Positions 3,702-33,661 of a DNA stretch of 36,761 nt are shown here, piece after piece; positions within the stretch are counted from its first letter, which is position 1; every line of letters begins with the position of its first letter. The notes under the pieces are model-generated. The model did not search any database. It saw only the letters and a list, made by a program, of their open reading frames with translations, and had not been told where the DNA came from. This DNA comes from a virus. The position numbers were made by a program, and so were the translations under genes. Location: IMG/VR virus record IMGVR_UViG_3300043353_000067, positions 1 through 36,761 of that record; one strand, written 5' to 3'.

Positions 3702-3919
3702 GGGCGGGGCACCTTGAACTCCTCGGGAACCTTGTACTGCGTGAAACGCGGGTTGGTGGCTTTGAGTTCGTTCGCGAAGTGTATCCAATGCCAACACACG
3801 GTCTTGTCTGGATCGTCCGATGAGACGGCGACCGCGATTCCCACGGCCCTCAGTAGGTTGTGCCAATCGCCGCGCGACATTTCGAGCGTGACCGTATCTC
3901 CCTTTTCGGTGAGTGTCAT
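3698..3919 (-). CDS. Small conserved early protein
   Basis: 73 residues: a beta hairpin (DTVTLEMSRGDWHNLLRAVG) followed by helices ending NPRFTQYKVPEEFK. It resembles small proteins of other phage early operons that carry a similar HNLL plus FANEL/NP layout; the function is unknown. Four-base ATGA overlaps occur at both ends of the gene, so it is translationally coupled to both neighbours. Confidence 0.78.
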   Translation of the reverse strand: MTLTEKGDTVTLEMSRGDWHNLLRAVGIAVAVSSDDPDKTVCWHWIHFANELKATNPRFTQYKVPEEFKVPRP

Positions 3920-4191
3920 GCGTTCCCTTTCGCTAGTTCCACTGGGACTTCGATTTCATAAGAGTCGCCCATCAGGCTGGTGACCGTTTCCGCCTGATAG
4001 TTAATCGTCAATGGCAGGCTGTTGGCGATCAAACCATTCGAGGCCCGCACCGCGCCGTCAAATAGCAGCATCACGGATGCGGGATCAGTGTCGGACGCTA
4101 AGGCAACAAACGCGGGCGTCCACTCACCGTCGATCCATCCGACCAGCCGGACCCGCACGTAGTCTCCGCGCTTCAGACGGTCGGCGGTCAC
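3916..4191 (-). CDS. Small beta-barrel-like early protein
   Basis: 91 residues. It is strand rich: GDYVRVRLVGWIDGEW, then FVALASDTD, SVMLLFDGAVRASNGL and YQAETVTSLMGDSYEIEVP. The pattern suggests an SH3-like barrel and resembles a common small phage protein without known function. The ATG overlaps the upstream TGA (ATGA). No nucleic-acid-binding patch or metal site can be seen. Confidence 0.78.
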   Translation of the reverse strand: MTADRLKRGDYVRVRLVGWIDGEWTPAFVALASDTDPASVMLLFDGAVRASNGLIANSLPLTINYQAETVTSLMGDSYEIEVPVELAKGNA

Positions 4192-4611: not shown

Positions 4612-5078
4612 TACCAGTCCTCCCGGTCGAAGATCCTGTCCTCGATCGCATCCAGTTGCTTTTCGTGCTCGCTCAGTTCGACCCCGCGCATCTCGCGCCA
4701 GCGGCGGCCGAGATCCCGCTTCGCCTGATACCACCGGTCCTGAAGGCATCGGCCGACGTAGGCAAGCACGGCGCGCGGCCGCGCCACCTCGCCGCACATC
4801 CTGGCGTGCTGCTCTTGCGCCTCCAGCCAGGTCGAGCAGCGCTCCTGCTCGTAGCCGTCGCGGCCCGGCCAGAAGGCCATCGTCTCGAAGAGCAGCGGCG
4901 GCCCGCCGCGGCCGTAGGCGTGATCCAGGCCGATGAAGATGGTGGACACGTCGCACATGCCGAGCACCCGGGTGTGCGCTACGCGGGGGTCTGTCGCCTC
5001 GAGTTTCTGCGCCCACTCCAGCACGCCGCCGTCGACGGGCACCACCGTCTGTCCGATCAGTTCGTAGTAGTCGCTCAT
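4611..5078 (-). CDS. Conserved phage early protein of unknown function
   Basis: 155 residues from MSDYYELIGQTVVPVDGGV. The core VSTIFIGLDHAYGRGGPPLL followed by FETM is the most distinctive stretch and occurs, in my memory, in early proteins of many unrelated phages without assigned activity. The C-terminal half is helical and charged. The start overlaps the stop of the replication-initiator-like gene by ATGA, so the two are co-translated. An in-frame upstream reading to 5246 is a shadow. Confidence 0.82.
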   Translation of the reverse strand: MSDYYELIGQTVVPVDGGVLEWAQKLEATDPRVAHTRVLGMCDVSTIFIGLDHAYGRGGPPLLFETMAFWPGRDGYEQERCSTWLEAQEQHARMCGEVARPRAVLAYVGRCLQDRWYQAKRDLGRRWREMRGVELSEHEKQLDAIEDRIFDREDW

Positions 5079-6574
5079 GCCTGGGTTCCTAATTCGGCCA
5101 GTTCCGGGTACTTCTGCAGGACGTCGGCCCGCTCTTCCTCGTTGAGTTCCGGCCACGCCTCGCGGGCGTAGGCGATTCGCTGGGCGCGTTCCTGCCGCTC
5201 TTCCTCCAGTAACTCTCGCGCCAGTCTCAGCGGTTCGCCTTTGCACATCTTCGGAACCGCCTCGATCACAAAGCCCGTAATGTTATCGATTTTGCCGTTC
5301 CGGATTTTCACCTTCACGTGTTCTAGCTTCGACCTGGTTAGGTGGACGATTTCGGGGCCGGTGATGGTGGGCTCGACAGCTTGGCAGCGGCTTACCAGCA
5401 GATAGGCGGCATCGTCGTCCATCTGCAACTCGCGGGCTACCAGCAGGGCGGGCTGGTCTTCGATCGAGGGGCGCGGGCTGGGCAATTTCGCCATCGCGCC
5501 CTTCCCCAGTCCCGCCGCTTGTAACTTGTCAGGGGGAATATCAGGATCTGACGGCCGACTTCCTTCGCGCTTTCTTTCGTCGCGGTCCTGGCGTGCGTGA
5601 TGCTCGTCCCACGATGCGTCGATACGCCGCTCAAACTCGTCGTCGTCGACGTCGATCAATTCGTCCGTGTACAGCTCCTTGACCGGTGATCCCCCATCCC
5701 CATCACCAGCTCGGTTCTGCGTGTGTGAGCCATTTCCGGAACGGGAGCGGGAGCTGCCCCCGTTCTTAGTATTTAAGTCTCCAAGTCTCGACAATAAGGA
5801 TGCATGCTCCTGACACGCATCAAAGACCGCCTTGGAAGCCGCTGTACGCGCATCTGAGATCGCGGCGTTGAGACGTGTACACGCATCGAGAGCCACGGCG
5901 TTGATGCGCGTATACACATCAACCGGCAAAACGGCCTTCGCTTCGGCCAGCAGCATTAAGGATTTGCGGGGTAAAGCACGTAAGTCATTGATTCCATTAA
6001 AATCGTTGATGCGTTTACACGCATCACGCTCTTGTAGATTCAACAACTTAGGCGAAAGCTCCGGGTGGAGCCTATCTTCCAACTCTATCACGAGGAATCG
6101 GGCTTTCAGCCAGGAAATACTGCGCGTCACCTGCGACTGCTCCATGTGCAGAACGACGGCCAGTGAGCGGTGGGTGTGCCGCTTCCATTTACCGAACTCC
6201 CTGATCGGCTCGCCGTCGGCGTCGACCTGGACCGCGTACAGTAGGCAGACCGGCCAGCAAGTCGAGAAGAACTTGATAGCCGCAAGCACTCGCTCATGCG
6301 GAAGGTGGACCGACTCCCATTTCTTGTTCCGATCCCAGTCTTTTGGAGGGAGGTCCATAACCGCCAGCAACTGCTCCTGGGTTTCGCGGCCCCATCGCTT
6401 CAGCCCGCGCGCTTCGTACATCTTCGAGAGCACACGGCCGCGGCACTCCGGCCGGTTGCGGCACAACGGCCCCTCGGCCGTCATGGTGTAGGGCTTCGGC
6501 TTTCCTCTCACTCCCGTCAGGCTAAAGACATTGCCACACTCGTGGCATGTGGGTGGCGGGGTGCTGACGCTCAT
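5075..6574 (-). CDS. Putative replication initiator with winged-helix region
   Basis: 499 residues from MSVSTPPPTCHECGNVF. AGGAG sits about seven bases before the ATG at 6574, which decides it over 6643. An N-terminal zinc-finger-like CHEC...CRNRPEC is followed by a winged-helix-like region (HRSLAVVLHMEQSQVTRSIS, then WLKARFLVIE). A tandem 11-residue repeat starting DACTRLN/DVYTRIN sits near the middle, then an acidic linker, and a C-terminal KIDNITGFVIEAVPKMCKG resembling the DnaD/DnaT-like ends of phage replication proteins. It is the first gene of the leftward operon and carries iteron-like DNA inside its frame, as lambda O does. The replication role is inferred; no helicase or loader gene follows. 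Confidence 0.7.
   Translation of the reverse strand: MSVSTPPPTCHECGNVFSLTGVRGKPKPYTMTAEGPLCRNRPECRGRVLSKMYEARGLKRWGRETQEQLLAVMDLPPKDWDRNKKWESVHLPHERVLAAIKFFSTCWPVCLLYAVQVDADGEPIREFGKWKRHTHRSLAVVLHMEQSQVTRSISWLKARFLVIELEDRLHPELSPKLLNLQERDACKRINDFNGINDLRALPRKSLMLLAEAKAVLPVDVYTRINAVALDACTRLNAAISDARTAASKAVFDACQEHASLLSRLGDLNTKNGGSSRSRSGNGSHTQNRAGDGDGGSPVKELYTDELIDVDDDEFERRIDASWDEHHARQDRDERKREGSRPSDPDIPPDKLQAAGLGKGAMAKLPSPRPSIEDQPALLVARELQMDDDAAYLLVSRCQAVEPTITGPEIVHLTRSKLEHVKVKIRNGKIDNITGFVIEAVPKMCKGEPLRLARELLEEERQERAQRIAYAREAWPELNEEERADVLQKYPELAELGTQA
5813..6026. repeat. Iteron-like repeats inside the initiator gene, candidate origin
   Basis: The motif ACRCGCATC (plus strand) or close variants ends at 5821, 5854, 5887 and 5920, an exact 33-bp period. 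A fifth copy ends at 6025 as the dyad TGATGCGT-N4-ACGCATCA (6007-6026). The 5901-5922 copy is also near-palindromic around GTATAC. AT-rich tracts lie at about 5765-5800 and 5980-6008. The codons used (GAT, TGT) are not the GC-ending ones preferred nearby, pointing to constraint on the DNA. The location inside the initiator-like gene matches lambda-type origins. An 11-residue protein repeat is the alternative reading. Confidence 0.6.
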
Positions 6575-7025
6575 CGTCCAGCTCCTACAGAGTCCTGCGT
6601 TGTACTCTTCATGGGGAATTCCGTCCAGCGTCTGAAAATTCATTGCCTGGAGGGGATGGGAAACTGGGCGGGTCTATGGCAAGATGGACTTAGCCTTGAA
6701 GCGTTCTCCCAACCTGTAAACGGCTCGCCACTGCGTGAATTTCTTGGCAGAAGGTACGCAGGGACGGGTAAAAGCAAAAGGGAGGCGATCTCCCAAGGTG
6801 CGGCATAGTTTTATGGCGTAGGCGAACTCCTTCGAGTTCGATTACAATATAAAATTTTCCGACCCATTTCCCGCCGCGGTAGTACCTTCGACGCCCTTCC
6901 CGGTAGTACTCTGCGTGCCCCGATTCTCGGTGTACGCCCAATAAACTGGTAGAGACGAAAACGGCCGATCCAGGTGTTATCAGCACCTGAACCGGCCTAA
7001 CCACCCTAGTTTTCTTGGAACTGGA
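6575..7025. other. 451-bp divergent spacer between early operon and integrase
   Basis: No convincing gene is present. It must hold the start signals of the leftward operon and of the integrase. Visible elements are GGGAG-N5-CTCCC at 6780-6794, a hairpin CGAACTC-CTTC-GAGTTCG at 6823-6840, an AT-rich tract at 6841-6859 and three direct repeats at 6877-6939. I could not assign a convincing -35/-10 pair on either strand. Hairpin and repeats together are what an attP or repressor-operator region would look like. Confidence 0.6.
6877..6939. repeat. Three direct repeats upstream of the integrase
   Basis: CGGTAGTAC occurs at 6877-6885 and 6901-6909, and a variant CGGTGTACGCCC at 6928-6939. The spacings are 24 and 27 bp, with partial agreement in the bases that follow (CG..GCCC). 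Integrase arm-type sites or operator half-sites are the likely roles; neither can be proven here. Confidence 0.5.
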
Positions 7026-7979
7026 ATGGCCTGTACTAATCCTAGTATTGAGATCTCTCTGGAGATGCTCAAAGCCGAACAACTGCGTCTGCGCAAGGGC
7101 GTTGTCGCACGCAACACCGTATTGGGCTACGGGTACGATTGGCGTATGTTTTGCGCCTGGGCGAAGAGCCGCGGCCTTGATGCGCTGCCGGCCTCGGCCG
7201 ACACCGTGGCGCTTTACCTGACCGACCTTCTCACGCAGGGGAAGAAGATCACGACCGCACGCCGGCGCAAATGCGCCATCTTCTACGAACACGTGGCGCG
7301 CGGGCTGCCGTCTCCCGGCGTCGACGACATCCAGGAGCTGCTTCGTGGCGCCCAACGCCTTAGCGGGGAGAAACCACGGCAAATGCGGCCGATCAGCGTG
7401 CGCGAACTGCGCCGCATGTCGGCCAAACTCGCGCGCATCGGCACGCCGCGGGCACTGCGGGACCGTGCTCTGCTGGTGGTGGGTTTCGCGAGCGCGCTGC
7501 GCCGCTCCAACCTCGGCGCCCTCAAACTGGCAGACATCGAATTTGTGCGCGAGGGCGTGATACTCACCATAGATCGAGAGAAGGGCGACCAGGAAGGGCG
7601 AGGCAGATTCATCGGGCTTGCCCGCGGCCGCCATGCCGATACTTGCCCGGTGCGCGTCGTGCGGGCGTGGCTGCGGGTGCGCGGCGCCGGACCCGGCCCC
7701 CTGTTCCCCAGCATGGATCGCCGTCACCCGGGCGTGCCGTTGGATGGCGATAGCATCTGCCGCCTGGTCAAGCGAGCGCTCACGCTCATCGGAATCGATC
7801 CTGTGCAACACGGGGCACACAGTCTTCGCGCCGGATTTTGCACCGCGGCCGGCGAGGCCAATGTCGGAGAGTTGGTGATTGCGAGCCAGACCGGTCACCG
7901 CAGTATGCAGGTGCTGCGAAGCTATTTCCGCCGCTCGGATCTCTGGCGGGCTAATGCCAGCGCGCTGCTCGGCCTGTAG
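7026..7979 (+). CDS. int: Tyrosine recombinase / phage integrase
   Basis: 317 residues. The N-terminal helical core-binding domain (about 1-110, with RNTVLGYGYDWRMFCAWAKS) is followed by the catalytic domain. Catalytic residues visible are R159 (ALRRSNL), K186 (REKGDQ), H265 and R268 (HSLRAG), H291 (TGHRS) and nucleophile Y300. It would catalyse integration and possibly excision of the phage. The start at 7026 has only weak ribosome-binding complementarity (TTGGAACTGG). It lies next to the repeat-rich spacer 6575-7025 and converges on the HTH gene at 8333-8836, a common int/xis neighbourhood. A second recombinase gene lies at 32299. Confidence 0.93.
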   Translation: MACTNPSIEISLEMLKAEQLRLRKGVVARNTVLGYGYDWRMFCAWAKSRGLDALPASADTVALYLTDLLTQGKKITTARRRKCAIFYEHVARGLPSPGVDDIQELLRGAQRLSGEKPRQMRPISVRELRRMSAKLARIGTPRALRDRALLVVGFASALRRSNLGALKLADIEFVREGVILTIDREKGDQEGRGRFIGLARGRHADTCPVRVVRAWLRVRGAGPGPLFPSMDRRHPGVPLDGDSICRLVKRALTLIGIDPVQHGAHSLRAGFCTAAGEANVGELVIASQTGHRSMQVLRSYFRRSDLWRANASALLGL

Positions 7980-8332: not shown

Positions 8333-8836
8333 TCATTTGCGTGGTATAGGCGCTTTGATCGCATCGACGTCGCGCCGCGCGATGCGATAGCGGCCGCCGG
8401 GCCGCACTCCGACATCGAGCGCGCCGAGGCGCCTTTCCTCGATCATGCGCAGCAGGTAAGTGCCCGGCAGGCCCGAGTAGTCCGCGGCCTCGTCCACGGT
8501 GAGCCAGGGGCGATCCGGCGCCGGCGAAGGTGCGGGAAGCGCCTGGACCGGCGGCAGTGCGGCCACTTCGCCCGCACCTCCGCGGTAAGCGACCAGCCGC
8601 TGCTTGCCGTCCATCACCGCCCGGTGAACCTCGGCCGCAGAAAAGACGGTTTGCCGGCGCTTGGTGACGGGATCCGTCACCTGGCGTCGTCTCATGGCGC
8701 CGTTCGCCGAGAGTTCGAGCACGCGGCGCACGCTCAAACCGAGCCGCTGGGCGGCGATTTCTTTGCTGATGAATTCAGGCGCCGGGCGAACAGACGCAGG
8801 CGCAGAACTGCGGTATGCTGGTTTTGAATTTGACAT
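8333..8836 (-). CDS. Two-domain HTH protein, excisionase-like
   Basis: 167 residues. Two separate winged-HTH modules are visible: residues about 22-72 (ISKEIAAQRLGLSVRRVLEL, with an AEVHR end) and 111-160 (WLTVDEAADYSGLPGTYLLR, then RRLGALDVGVRPGGRYRIAR). The second matches the excisionase/MerR-like HTH_17 pattern closely. A proline/alanine-rich linker joins them. Such proteins bend DNA at att sites or act as small regulators; pairing with the integrase suggests a directionality factor, although Xis proteins are usually single-domain and shorter. The start at 8836 is preceded by AAGG and by a GC-rich hairpin. Confidence 0.8.
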   Translation of the reverse strand: MSNSKPAYRSSAPASVRPAPEFISKEIAAQRLGLSVRRVLELSANGAMRRRQVTDPVTKRRQTVFSAAEVHRAVMDGKQRLVAYRGGAGEVAALPPVQALPAPSPAPDRPWLTVDEAADYSGLPGTYLLRMIEERRLGALDVGVRPGGRYRIARRDVDAIKAPIPRK

Positions 8837-9445: not shown

Positions 9446-9642
9446 CGGTGGGAGAGCTCAAGAAACTGCTTGAGCCGCTCGACGACGGGCTACCCGTCAT
9501 CGTGGTGGCACCCTGCCTGGACGAAGACGGCGACGACTGCGAGACGTGGTTCCAGGTGCACGAAGTCGCGAGCGAGATGGACGCCGACACTGCGGAAGAA
9601 TACGCGAAGTTCGATTGCACCCGGTTGGATTTTGAAAAATGA
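9442..9642 (+). CDS. Small acidic phage protein (MTVGELKKLL family)
   Basis: 66 residues. MTVGELKKLLEPLDDGLPVI is an N-terminus I recall from many short phage proteins, followed by an acidic body rich in D and E. The function is unknown. ATGA overlaps occur at both ends, coupling it to the preceding gene and to the terminase large subunit. Confidence 0.78.
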   Translation: MTVGELKKLLEPLDDGLPVIVVAPCLDEDGDDCETWFQVHEVASEMDADTAEEYAKFDCTRLDFEK

Positions 9643-11207
9643 CCCCGGCGATTGACGCGGAACTGGAACTGATCGAGGAGATGGCGCAGTGCGCCAACGA
9701 CCCGCTGCGCTTCGTCATGTTCGCCTACCCTTGGGGAGTACCGCGGACGCCGCTCGCGGACTACGCGGGGCCAGACGAGTGGCAAGGTCAGTTGCTGCGC
9801 GAGATCGGCGAAGAGGTGCGGAAGCGCGGCTTCGACGGCCTCAACGCTGTGGGGCCCATCCGCCAGGCCATCTCGAGCGGACACGGGATCGGGAAGAGCA
9901 CCACAAGCGCCTGGCTGGCGAACTGGATCATGTCCACCCGCCCGAATTCGCAGGGCACGATCACCAGCAACACCTTTGCGCAGCTTTCCACCAAGACCTG
10001 GCCGGCGATCCTGAAGTGGACGCGCATGTGCATCACCGGCCACTGGTTCGTGGCGGGGCAGGAAAAGATCTTCGCCAAGGCGGCGCCGGAATCCTGGTTT
10101 GTCACCGCGCAGACCTGCAGGCGAGAGAACTCCGAGGCCTTCCACGGCCAGCACGCCGCGCGATCGACGTCCTGGTATCTCTTCGACGAGGCCTCGGCCA
10201 TCCCTGACGAGATCTGGAACGCGGCCGAGGGCGGGCTCACTGATGGTGAGCCGATGATCTTCGCGTGGGGCAACCCGACCAGGAACACCGGCAAGTTTCA
10301 CCGCATCGTCTTCGGATCTGAGCGGGACCGGTGGCTGCAGAAAATCATTGACAGCCGTACCGCGCGATTCACTAACAAGGCCCTGCTCGAGGAGTGGATC
10401 CGCGATTACGGGGAAGACTCCGACTTTGTACGGGTCCGGGTCCGCGGGATCGCGCCGCGCGCCGGCGAGCTGCAATACATCGATCAGGAGCGGGTCTGGC
10501 AGGCCCAGCAGCGCGCGGCCTCAAGTTTTCCTGACGATCCTCTGGTTTGTGGGTTCGACGTCGCCGGCCGCGGCGGGATGTTCAACCTGCCGGGCGCCCG
10601 GAGCGATGGCGGCGGCGAAGGCTCCAACAAGCGCGACAGCGGCGGATCCGGCGCCTGGAACGTGATCGCGTTCCGGCGCGGCCTGGACGCCCGGGCGATC
10701 CCGGCCGTCCGGATCTCGGGCGAGGACACGCGCGATCGCAGCGTGATGCTGGGCAAGCTGACCGAGATCCTGAGCGACAAGCGGCCCACGCACCAGGTCG
10801 CGATGATGTTTGTCGATTCGGCCTTCGGCGCGCCCTACGTCGAGCGGCTGCGCGCGATGAACTACGACAACGTCATGGAGGTTAACTTCGGTGCGCCTTC
10901 TCACGATCGCCACCAGGCCAACATGCGCGCGTACATGTGGAGCCGGATGAAAGAGTGGCTCCTGAAGGGCGCGATTCCCGGCGACAACATTTTGGAGACA
11001 GACCTCACCGGCCCGGGCTACCACTTGAACAAGAGCGAGCAGCTCGTGATCGAGAGCAAGCAGGACATGGTGAAGCGAGGGATCGCGTCACCGGACTACG
11101 GTGACGCACTGGCCCTCACGTTTGCCGCCTTTGTGCCGCCGGTGGCGCCGGCCGCGGCGCAGGAACTCGGGCGCGGGTTCGGGGGCGGCGGGTCATGGAT
11201 GGGGTGA
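9639..11207 (+). CDS. terL: Terminase large subunit (packaging ATPase/nuclease)
   Basis: 522 residues. Walker A is GHGIGKST (81-88), Walker B YLFDEAS (D183, E184), and the coupling motif AWGNPT lies at 209-214. The RNase-H-fold nuclease acids are probably D307 (GFDVAG), D393 (FVDSAFG) and D489 (YGDALAL). It drives ATP-dependent DNA translocation into the procapsid and cuts the concatemer. A glycine-rich insert of roughly 20-25 residues (about 312-337) follows the first nuclease acid. The N-terminal FVMFAYPWGVP region is a signature I recall from this terminase group. The usual partner, the small subunit, is not adjacent; a candidate lies at 33197-33661. Confidence 0.95.
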   Translation: MTPAIDAELELIEEMAQCANDPLRFVMFAYPWGVPRTPLADYAGPDEWQGQLLREIGEEVRKRGFDGLNAVGPIRQAISSGHGIGKSTTSAWLANWIMSTRPNSQGTITSNTFAQLSTKTWPAILKWTRMCITGHWFVAGQEKIFAKAAPESWFVTAQTCRRENSEAFHGQHAARSTSWYLFDEASAIPDEIWNAAEGGLTDGEPMIFAWGNPTRNTGKFHRIVFGSERDRWLQKIIDSRTARFTNKALLEEWIRDYGEDSDFVRVRVRGIAPRAGELQYIDQERVWQAQQRAASSFPDDPLVCGFDVAGRGGMFNLPGARSDGGGEGSNKRDSGGSGAWNVIAFRRGLDARAIPAVRISGEDTRDRSVMLGKLTEILSDKRPTHQVAMMFVDSAFGAPYVERLRAMNYDNVMEVNFGAPSHDRHQANMRAYMWSRMKEWLLKGAIPGDNILETDLTGPGYHLNKSEQLVIESKQDMVKRGIASPDYGDALALTFAAFVPPVAPAAAQELGRGFGGGGSWMG

Positions 11208-17745: not shown

Positions 17746-17870
17746 GGGGTTCGCGATCAAACACAACCGGGGTGTAGCTGCGGAGATGCGGCCGGAATGG
17801 CGGCAGTGCCGCCGCTTCGCCCGCACTTAGGCAAGGAATCGAGACTTTTGAGACATAGGAGATCAACGAG
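17746..17870. other. Short spacer with a palindrome in the late operon
   Basis: This is among the larger gene-free gaps of the late operon. It holds the dyad GGCGGCA-G-TGCCGCC (17799-17813) without a T-tract, so it is an mRNA hairpin rather than a clear terminator. A 14-codon reading from the ATG at 17786 (RPEW start) recalls the RPEW of the gene at 17000 and might be a remnant; this is weak. Confidence 0.4.
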
Positions 17871-32298: not shown

Positions 32299-32997
32299 AT
32301 GGCCATTCCTGACCAGACACAACAGTTCGCCACCCGGAAGGGCAAAGCAGCCAAAACCCCAATAAACGCGGGGGTTCCAGATGACCGAACCGGACATAAT
32401 ACTTATTCTGTCCGGTCCAATCATCGCCCCAAGCCTCGCCTTAAGTATATGATTGCAAACGAGATACGTGCTGTTCTAGCGGCTACTTTCAAAAACCCGC
32501 GGGACTATGCGATATTCCGCGTCGGCTATCATCACGGCCTGAGAGCGAGCGAGATCGGGATGCTCGAGATGTCGGACTGGATGCCGGCCTCGCGTATGGA
32601 GAATGACCGGCTATCGATCCACCGGCTCAAGAACTCGATCAGCGGCGAGACGCGCTTGGTGCCGGCGGCCGCGGAAGCTCTTCGACGGTGGATCAAGAAG
32701 CGCGGCACGGCGCCAGGCCCGATCTTCCTTTCGCGCAAAGATAAGCCGATCTCGCGCAAGCGGCTGCACGAGTTGGCCCAATACTACGGCAAGAAGGCCG
32801 GCATTCCCGAAGACAAGCGGCACTTCCACGCGCTGCGGCATACTTGCGCGACGTCGCTGTTGAGCGAGCACGAGCTGGACATCGCGCATGTGAAGGATCA
32901 CCTCGGGCACAAGAACATTCAGAACACGATGATCTATGCGCAGCTCACCGCGGCCGCAAGTGATGCGCGGTTCAACAAGATCCGATCGTGGCGATAG
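32299..32997 (+). CDS. Catalytic-domain-only tyrosine recombinase, FimB/FimE-like
   Basis: 232 residues. A disordered basic N-terminus (1-48) replaces the usual core-binding domain; the rest is the catalytic domain. R82 (HGLRASEI), K111 (IHRLKNS), H177 and R180 (HALRHTCAT), H204 (LGHKN) and Y213 (NTMIYAQ) are all present. The block order IHRLK, PIFLSRKDKPISRKRL, FHALRHTCATSLL and DHLGHKNIQNTMIYA closely follows E. coli FimB/FimE, about 200-residue DNA inversion recombinases. It could invert or resolve a phage segment rather than integrate the genome. The start has AAGGA close upstream. Confidence 0.87.
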   Translation: MAIPDQTQQFATRKGKAAKTPINAGVPDDRTGHNTYSVRSNHRPKPRLKYMIANEIRAVLAATFKNPRDYAIFRVGYHHGLRASEIGMLEMSDWMPASRMENDRLSIHRLKNSISGETRLVPAAAEALRRWIKKRGTAPGPIFLSRKDKPISRKRLHELAQYYGKKAGIPEDKRHFHALRHTCATSLLSEHELDIAHVKDHLGHKNIQNTMIYAQLTAAASDARFNKIRSWR

Positions 32998-33196: not shown

Positions 33197-33661
33197 CTAG
33201 CTGGTCTTTTTGTCGTCTTCTTCGCGTTTGATTGCGATCAGGCGCGCGCGGGCCGATTCCAGCCGTTCAACGAGGTTGATCTGGCCGGTGTGCTCCTGGA
33301 CGACGTGTTCGCGGTAGAGTTTCGGCCGGAATCGCTTCAGCATGGTGAGATGCAATTGCGTGTCGAACTGCGTTTCGTAGACCAGGTGGCCATCCTTCGT
33401 CCTCATCGGCTTTCCGCGCCAATGCAGTTGCCGCCTGAATCCGTCCCGTACCCTCTCTACGCCCAAGTCTTCCAGTTCCTGCCCAACCCGGTCCTGTAGC
33501 GCCTCGAACCGCTTGCGGTATTCGGCATCCGTCTCCAGCCGGCGGTAGTGCATATTCTTGTCGATCCCGGCCGCCTTGGCCGCGGCCGTCACGCTGCCGC
33601 TGCCGGCGTAGGCCTCGAGGAAGACGGCCACGCGGGACGGCGTTGTTTTCTTCGCGGGCAT
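33197..33661 (-). CDS. terS: Terminase small subunit-like protein
   Basis: 154 residues. The N-terminal HTH (RVAVFLEAYAGSGSVTAAAK, then AAGIDKNMHYRRLETDAEYR) is the homeodomain-like module typical of phage terminase small subunits; the middle helices (FEALQDRVGQELEDLGVERV) would oligomerise, and the C-terminus is basic and charged. It would recognise the packaging site and load the large subunit. It is exceptional in lying on the opposite strand about 12 kb, around the circle, from the large subunit. A different HTH protein cannot be excluded. Confidence 0.72.
   Translation of the reverse strand: MPAKKTTPSRVAVFLEAYAGSGSVTAAAKAAGIDKNMHYRRLETDAEYRKRFEALQDRVGQELEDLGVERVRDGFRRQLHWRGKPMRTKDGHLVYETQFDTQLHLTMLKRFRPKLYREHVVQEHTGQINLVERLESARARLIAIKREEDDKKTS

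Follow-up and report, generated by a model that had tools for sequence, protein, structure and literature searches.

A probable lambda-type replication origin built from palindromic sites within the initiator-like gene of an uncultivated phage

The 36,761-base IMG/VR virus record IMGVR_UViG_3300043353_000067, analysed over its full length and referred to here as the window, contains an initiator-like gene, P0001 (positions 5075–6643, minus strand; 522 amino acids). This open reading frame (ORF) holds a set of phased palindromic sites, and its C-terminus is common to O-like relatives. Because of the recurring layout of the sites, the O-like homology of the relatives and the elements in common with the origin of phage lambda, we consider it quite likely that replication of the window phage starts from a lambda-type origin located in the gene for its initiator. 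Origin activity itself is what the layout and the O-like homology of the relatives would suggest.

Palindromic sites within the initiator-like gene

The original prediction had proposed an origin composed of four CGCATC-ended copies, ending at 5821, 5854, 5887 and 5920, together with a separate dyad. The coordinates and the spacing of 33 base pairs (bp) were right, with the dyad at 6007–6026; the repeat unit is, however, a 20-bp palindrome (TGATGCG-TGTACA-CGCATCA-like) and not the 6-bp end, which on its own shows no enrichment in the window (59 found versus 48.8 expected). CGCATC ends are present on the plus strand at 5821, 5854 and 5887, but for the copy that ends at 5920 the plus strand has ACACATC, and the CGCATC lies on the minus strand, at 5903–5908. 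The proposed iterons are repeated, phased sites, but their palindromic form suits a dimer and sets them apart from simple direct iterons.

The strongest palindrome, site A (TGATGCGTTTACACGCATCA; 9 of 10 pairs), occupies exactly 6007–6026 as the dyad TGATGCGT-TTAC-ACGCATCA. In coding order it is followed at 105 bp, centre to centre, by site B (TGATGCGCGTATACACATCA; 5902–5921) and then, in steps of 33 bp, by site C (TGAGACGTGTACACGCATCG; 5869–5888) and two partial sites, D (5836–5855; one half-site 8/10) and E (5803–5822; one half-site 10/10). With up to 3 mismatches to TGATGCGTGTACACGCATCA allowed, three copies were found in the 36.8-kb window, all inside the site region of P0001, and none in 100 dinucleotide shuffles. 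A degenerate search of viral contigs for the window's own site returned the identical contig only.

The 11-residue unit encoded by the repeat was confirmed by translation, and all sites in the window share one frame, 105 and 33 both being multiples of 3. The repeat could therefore be regarded as a protein feature only, namely an 11-residue helical repeat (residues 241–294 are predicted to be helical, at low confidence) whose DNA is similar by chance of codons. We regard this explanation as very improbable and already largely refuted. The palindrome-plus-repeat score of P0001 (42) was higher than that of all 600 shuffles that kept both protein and codon usage (shuffle maximum 38), and the palindromes are hence not dictated by the protein repeat; moreover, the units are palindromes rather than repeats alone, and in the relatives palindromes persist in three frames, with compensated arms and differing encoded residues (see below). 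Lambda O, used as a control in the same test, also exceeded 600 of 600 shuffles, as did 10 of 15 relatives with respect to 300 of 300 synonymous shuffles each. Unusual codon use at the sites had been noted beforehand and holds in the counts: third-position GC is 47.5% in the 40 site codons versus 72% in the rest of the gene (Fisher P=0.002).

Syntenic relatives and exchange of the binding cassette

P0001 had no family match in Pfam, PHROG or NCBIfam, tblastn searches of 50,697 phage records, with either P0001 or the initiator of L006 as query, gave no matches, and a first scan of genome contigs found no relative. A syntenic contig, L003, is ∼81% identical to the window across the flanking genes. 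Its initiator keeps the last ∼120 residues of P0001 (60% identity) behind an unrelated N-terminal part, and nucleotide homology between the two breaks at the start codon and resumes near residue 400. The N-terminal part of the L003 protein is a winged helix matching O-like initiators, and its gene carries palindromes of its own, ATTGTAGTCGCG and CGCGACTACAAT, unrelated to those of the window and laid out in the same way. Comparable N-terminal swaps in the identical gene slot were found in L006 and L022.

The swapped cassette, comprising the N-terminal DNA-binding part and the binding sites, spans 5447–6634 (minus strand) by its blastn boundaries, with flanks 77–85% identical to L003, L006 and L022 and an unrelated interior. 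Adjacent to it lies the conserved C-terminal domain (residues ∼400–522; 5075–5446, minus strand), which is also 47% identical in L004 and presumably contacts the helicase or its loader. From these alignments, the view that the sites move with their binding domain, as one cassette beside the retained C-terminal domain, appears well supported. Within the cassette of the window, a candidate helix-turn-helix segment (residues ∼150–190, HRSLAVVLHMEQSQVTRSISWLKARFLV; 6074–6196, minus strand) was recognised by resemblance only; hhalign aligned it to the winged helix-turn-helix (wHTH) of the relatives without significance.

Searches with the winged-helix domain yielded further loci (L015–L052), including a contig of a Solibacteraceae metagenome-assembled genome (MAG). 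The wHTH domain matched PHROG 678 ('replication initiation O-like') in 14 of 15 relatives and was modelled with a predicted local distance difference test (pLDDT) score of ∼90. In the IMG/VR viral collection GTAGYCGCGCGCGRCTAC occurs in 4 contigs, every one of which carries this initiator family. Among 396 Acidobacteriota genomes the only strong match was the already known MAG; a general Acidobacteriota host is not established by this single genome.

Constraint at the DNA level in related initiators

In ten divergent relatives the arms of site A paired in 93% of cells, compared with 32–48% in slid-arm controls, and compensated arms were common, with 10 of 13 pairs changed on both sides. Site A is read in frame 0, 1 or 2 in different phages, while site B is invariably in frame 0. 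In L032 and L033 an identical 28-bp palindrome, AAAAGGTAGCCGCGCGCGGCTACCTTTT, occurs twice per gene in two frames, encoding EKVAARGYLL near the gene start and QKGSRARLPF at site A. Constraint therefore acts on the DNA, as the palindrome persists through changes of frame and of encoded residues, and judging from these comparisons protein constraint cannot explain the palindromes of the relatives. The original prediction of such a constraint is upheld both here and in the shuffle test, and the pattern that it had named as contrary, a protein repeat kept while synonymous sites vary freely, is contradicted by the related initiators. Around a dozen lineages of uncultivated phages, one of which is also represented in the Solibacteraceae MAG contig, diverge enough for this constraint to be established from sequence alone.

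Two local observations concern the same palindromes. The extra perfect 28-bp copy lies right after the initiator start codon in L032 (about 3918–3945) and upstream of the domain in L033, and is a candidate autoregulatory operator. In L020, site A (about 328 nt past the domain start) differs from that of L003 by the gain of one base in the palindrome core and the loss of one just after it, which puts the same right arm into a different reading frame.

Compensated changes fit RNA stems equally well, and perfect palindromes can fold as RNA; the sites might accordingly be hairpins in the initiator mRNA, serving as attenuators or in translational control. This seems highly unlikely, given that the arms have no loop between them, that several phased and degraded copies are present, that the sites co-vary with the recognition helix of the protein (see below), and that Rfam returned no match.

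Layout of sites and AT-rich stretches

The layout recurs across the relatives. Site A lies directly past the wHTH and site B follows at +98 to +101 (113 in L045 and 105 in the window). The step from B to C measures exactly 33 bp in 6 of the 11 distinct lineages, the window among them, and 34–44 bp in the rest. Most palindrome copies are found 300–550 bp into the coding region, as a fixed array with AT-rich flanks.

AT-rich stretches on both sides of the array had been noted beforehand and are present in this gene of ∼60% GC. The first lies in the A-to-B interval (5922–6006), with an AT peak at 5980–6019 (68% AT), and the second directly past the array at 5763–5802 (65% AT); both are candidate unwinding elements. 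Across 12 genes including that of the window, AT excess was seen between A and B in 10–12 and past the array in 11–12. The GC skew of the window makes a local turn near 6.5–7 kb, but this is uninformative because the genes also change strand there.

Two further features were noted in the relatives. At +87 to +89 nt from site B another GCGC core, possibly an extra half-site, is present in 6–7 of 10 genes, and a stretch rich in purines and in AT, which encodes KEERTERxIERT-like residues, has been retained at +220 to +240 nt from site A in a linker that is otherwise not conserved.

Co-variation of protein and site

A mutual-information scan of 781 pairs of domain columns and base columns ranked adjacent recognition-helix residues first and third. 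These two pairs join column 61 to base 6 and column 62 to base 9, Asn going with T and His with C, and both columns are placed at the start of the recognition helix in the predicted structure (pLDDT ∼90). Phages of the Asn/T and His/C kinds do not separate into two clades, although the tree is poorly resolved. We strongly infer from these patterns that the initiators of the relatives bind their palindromes, and by analogy P0001 probably binds the sites in the window. These lineages provide a natural set of initiator/origin pairs for testing a protein-to-site recognition code.

Comparison with known origins

The best-studied in-gene origins are those of lambdoid phages. In lambda, inverted-repeat iterons bound by O dimers lie with an adjoining AT-rich tract in the middle of the O gene (PMC7466680, PMC5043065); the lambda record J02459 has four iterons in O, with starts 20, 24 and 23 bp apart. 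As in lambda, the proposed origin of the window lies mid-gene, past the DNA-binding domain, and combines inverted repeats with AT-rich DNA. Repeated sites are present within the initiator coding sequence beyond what the protein demands, the inverted repeats suit a dimer (20-bp palindromes, with compensated arms in the relatives), and AT-rich DNA adjoins the sites, as two tracts in both the window and the relatives. An O-like N-terminal winged helix is seen in the relatives (PHROG 678, as above); the N-terminus of the window protein has neither a family match nor a significant profile match.

Unlike that of lambda, the origin proposed here has steps of 33 bp; a separate strong site precedes the array by ∼100 bp, and there are two stretches of AT-rich DNA. 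The 20–24 bp iteron spacing was not found in the window, but this is a trait of lambda itself and not of every in-gene origin. The original prediction had envisaged a different initiator-like protein in a lambda O-like arrangement: the arrangement is there and P0001, unlike lambda O, has no sequence match to O-like families, but its C-terminal ∼120 residues are common to the O-like relatives.

Phage L also departs from the lambda iteron spacing, and the initiator genes of lambda, P22 and phage L all contain repeats, each phage having a set of its own (PMC8022706). The gene 18 initiators of P22 and phage L are distantly related and have repeats of ∼20 bp in P22 and six repeats of 11 bp in L (PMC8022706). 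Protein and site change together in these origins, as they do here; the window differs from them in its layout of a remote palindrome and a 33-bp array. Phased initiator sites beside AT-rich DNA are also a feature of iteron plasmids (RepA, pi, TrfA type), unlike which the palindromes of the window sit within the initiator gene itself. The direct-repeat iterons bound by monomers that mark the Rep proteins of iteron plasmids were not found in the window, where the sites read as palindromes.

The principle of an in-gene origin is thus already known. The variant described here, from a group of uncultivated phages, combines a remote anchor palindrome, an AT-rich gap of ∼100 bp and a 33-bp array, and its protein-plus-site cassette is exchanged beside a retained C-terminal domain. 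The layout also provides a search recipe for origins in phages with no cultured host, namely a palindrome just past a wHTH, a second ∼100 bp on, and then steps of 33 bp.

Proposed mechanism and alternative roles

In the mechanism that we propose, a dimer of the N-terminal DNA-binding domain of the initiator would bind palindromes A to E within the sequence that encodes it. Of these, A is the strongest, and B to E come after about 100 bp in 33-bp steps, roughly three turns of DNA. The assembled complex would then unwind one or other of the AT-rich stretches, and recruitment of the helicase or its loader would fall to the conserved C-terminal domain. Binding domain and sites would recombine as a cassette next to the retained C-terminal domain. 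An attractive explanation for the spacing is that 33 bp may correspond at once to about three DNA turns and to 11 residues, or three turns of a helix; besides the helix predicted in the window protein, one is predicted at residues 146–170 of the L022 protein.

A broader proposal is possible, although we would at present lean against it. Under it, the uncultivated phage group would have an origin architecture of its own, in which an anchor palindrome is followed by a melting gap and then by a 33-bp array that shares its period with an 11-residue helical rod of the initiator; domains and sites would swap as orthogonal cassettes, and the bases of a site would be predictable from one or two residues of the recognition helix.

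The main rival explanation is that the palindromes do bind protein but serve mainly as operators, through which the initiator autoregulates the transcription of its operon, rather than in the start of replication. The extra perfect copy at the gene start in L032 and L033 lies where an operator would be expected, and in fold searches the wHTH domain of the relatives resembles transcription regulators. However, operators need neither a fixed array nor AT-rich flanks, nor a position deep inside the coding region such as most copies have, and the relatives match O-like initiators. We therefore judge a mainly regulatory role to be unlikely, though autoregulation and origin function may coexist.

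Several results weigh against a lambda-type origin within P0001. In the window taken alone the coding repeat contributes, as all of its sites are in one frame. No diverged homologues of the N-terminal part of P0001 were found, only the identical contig being recovered, and hhalign gave no significant match between this part and the wHTH family of the relatives. Without a diverged homologue, a family match or a significant profile match, the evidence for the N-terminus of the window protein consists of layout analogy and its own shuffle test. The AlphaFold model of P0001 alone was too poor for use (pLDDT 41). Among the relatives, L025 and L030 had no significant palindrome in the synonymous shuffle test. 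The co-variation scan comprised 11 sequences only, the accompanying tree is poorly resolved, and at column 61 the correlation fails for L017 (Gln with C).

Other features of the window

The ends of the window carry an identical sequence of 127 bp, and because of this the record is consistent with a complete genome. Its gene content includes a terminase, a P22-like portal and an integrase. In P0001 itself, a Cys-rich motif, CHEC...CRNRPEC, lies in the N-terminal part of the translation (6443–6547, minus strand) and is a possible zinc-binding element; none was seen in the L003 and L006 initiators.

In addition to the integrase at 7026–7979, a second tyrosine-recombinase-like ORF (PHROG 216 and 1) is found at 32299–32997 (plus strand). 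A terminase-small-subunit-like ORF at 33197–33661 (minus strand) lies on the opposite strand to, and far from, the large subunit at 9639–11207. Finally, a 51-bp repeat of 82% identity links an HTH_17/excisionase-like gene (8528–8577) with a distant region (17776–17826), and similar matches to L003 and L006 were observed.
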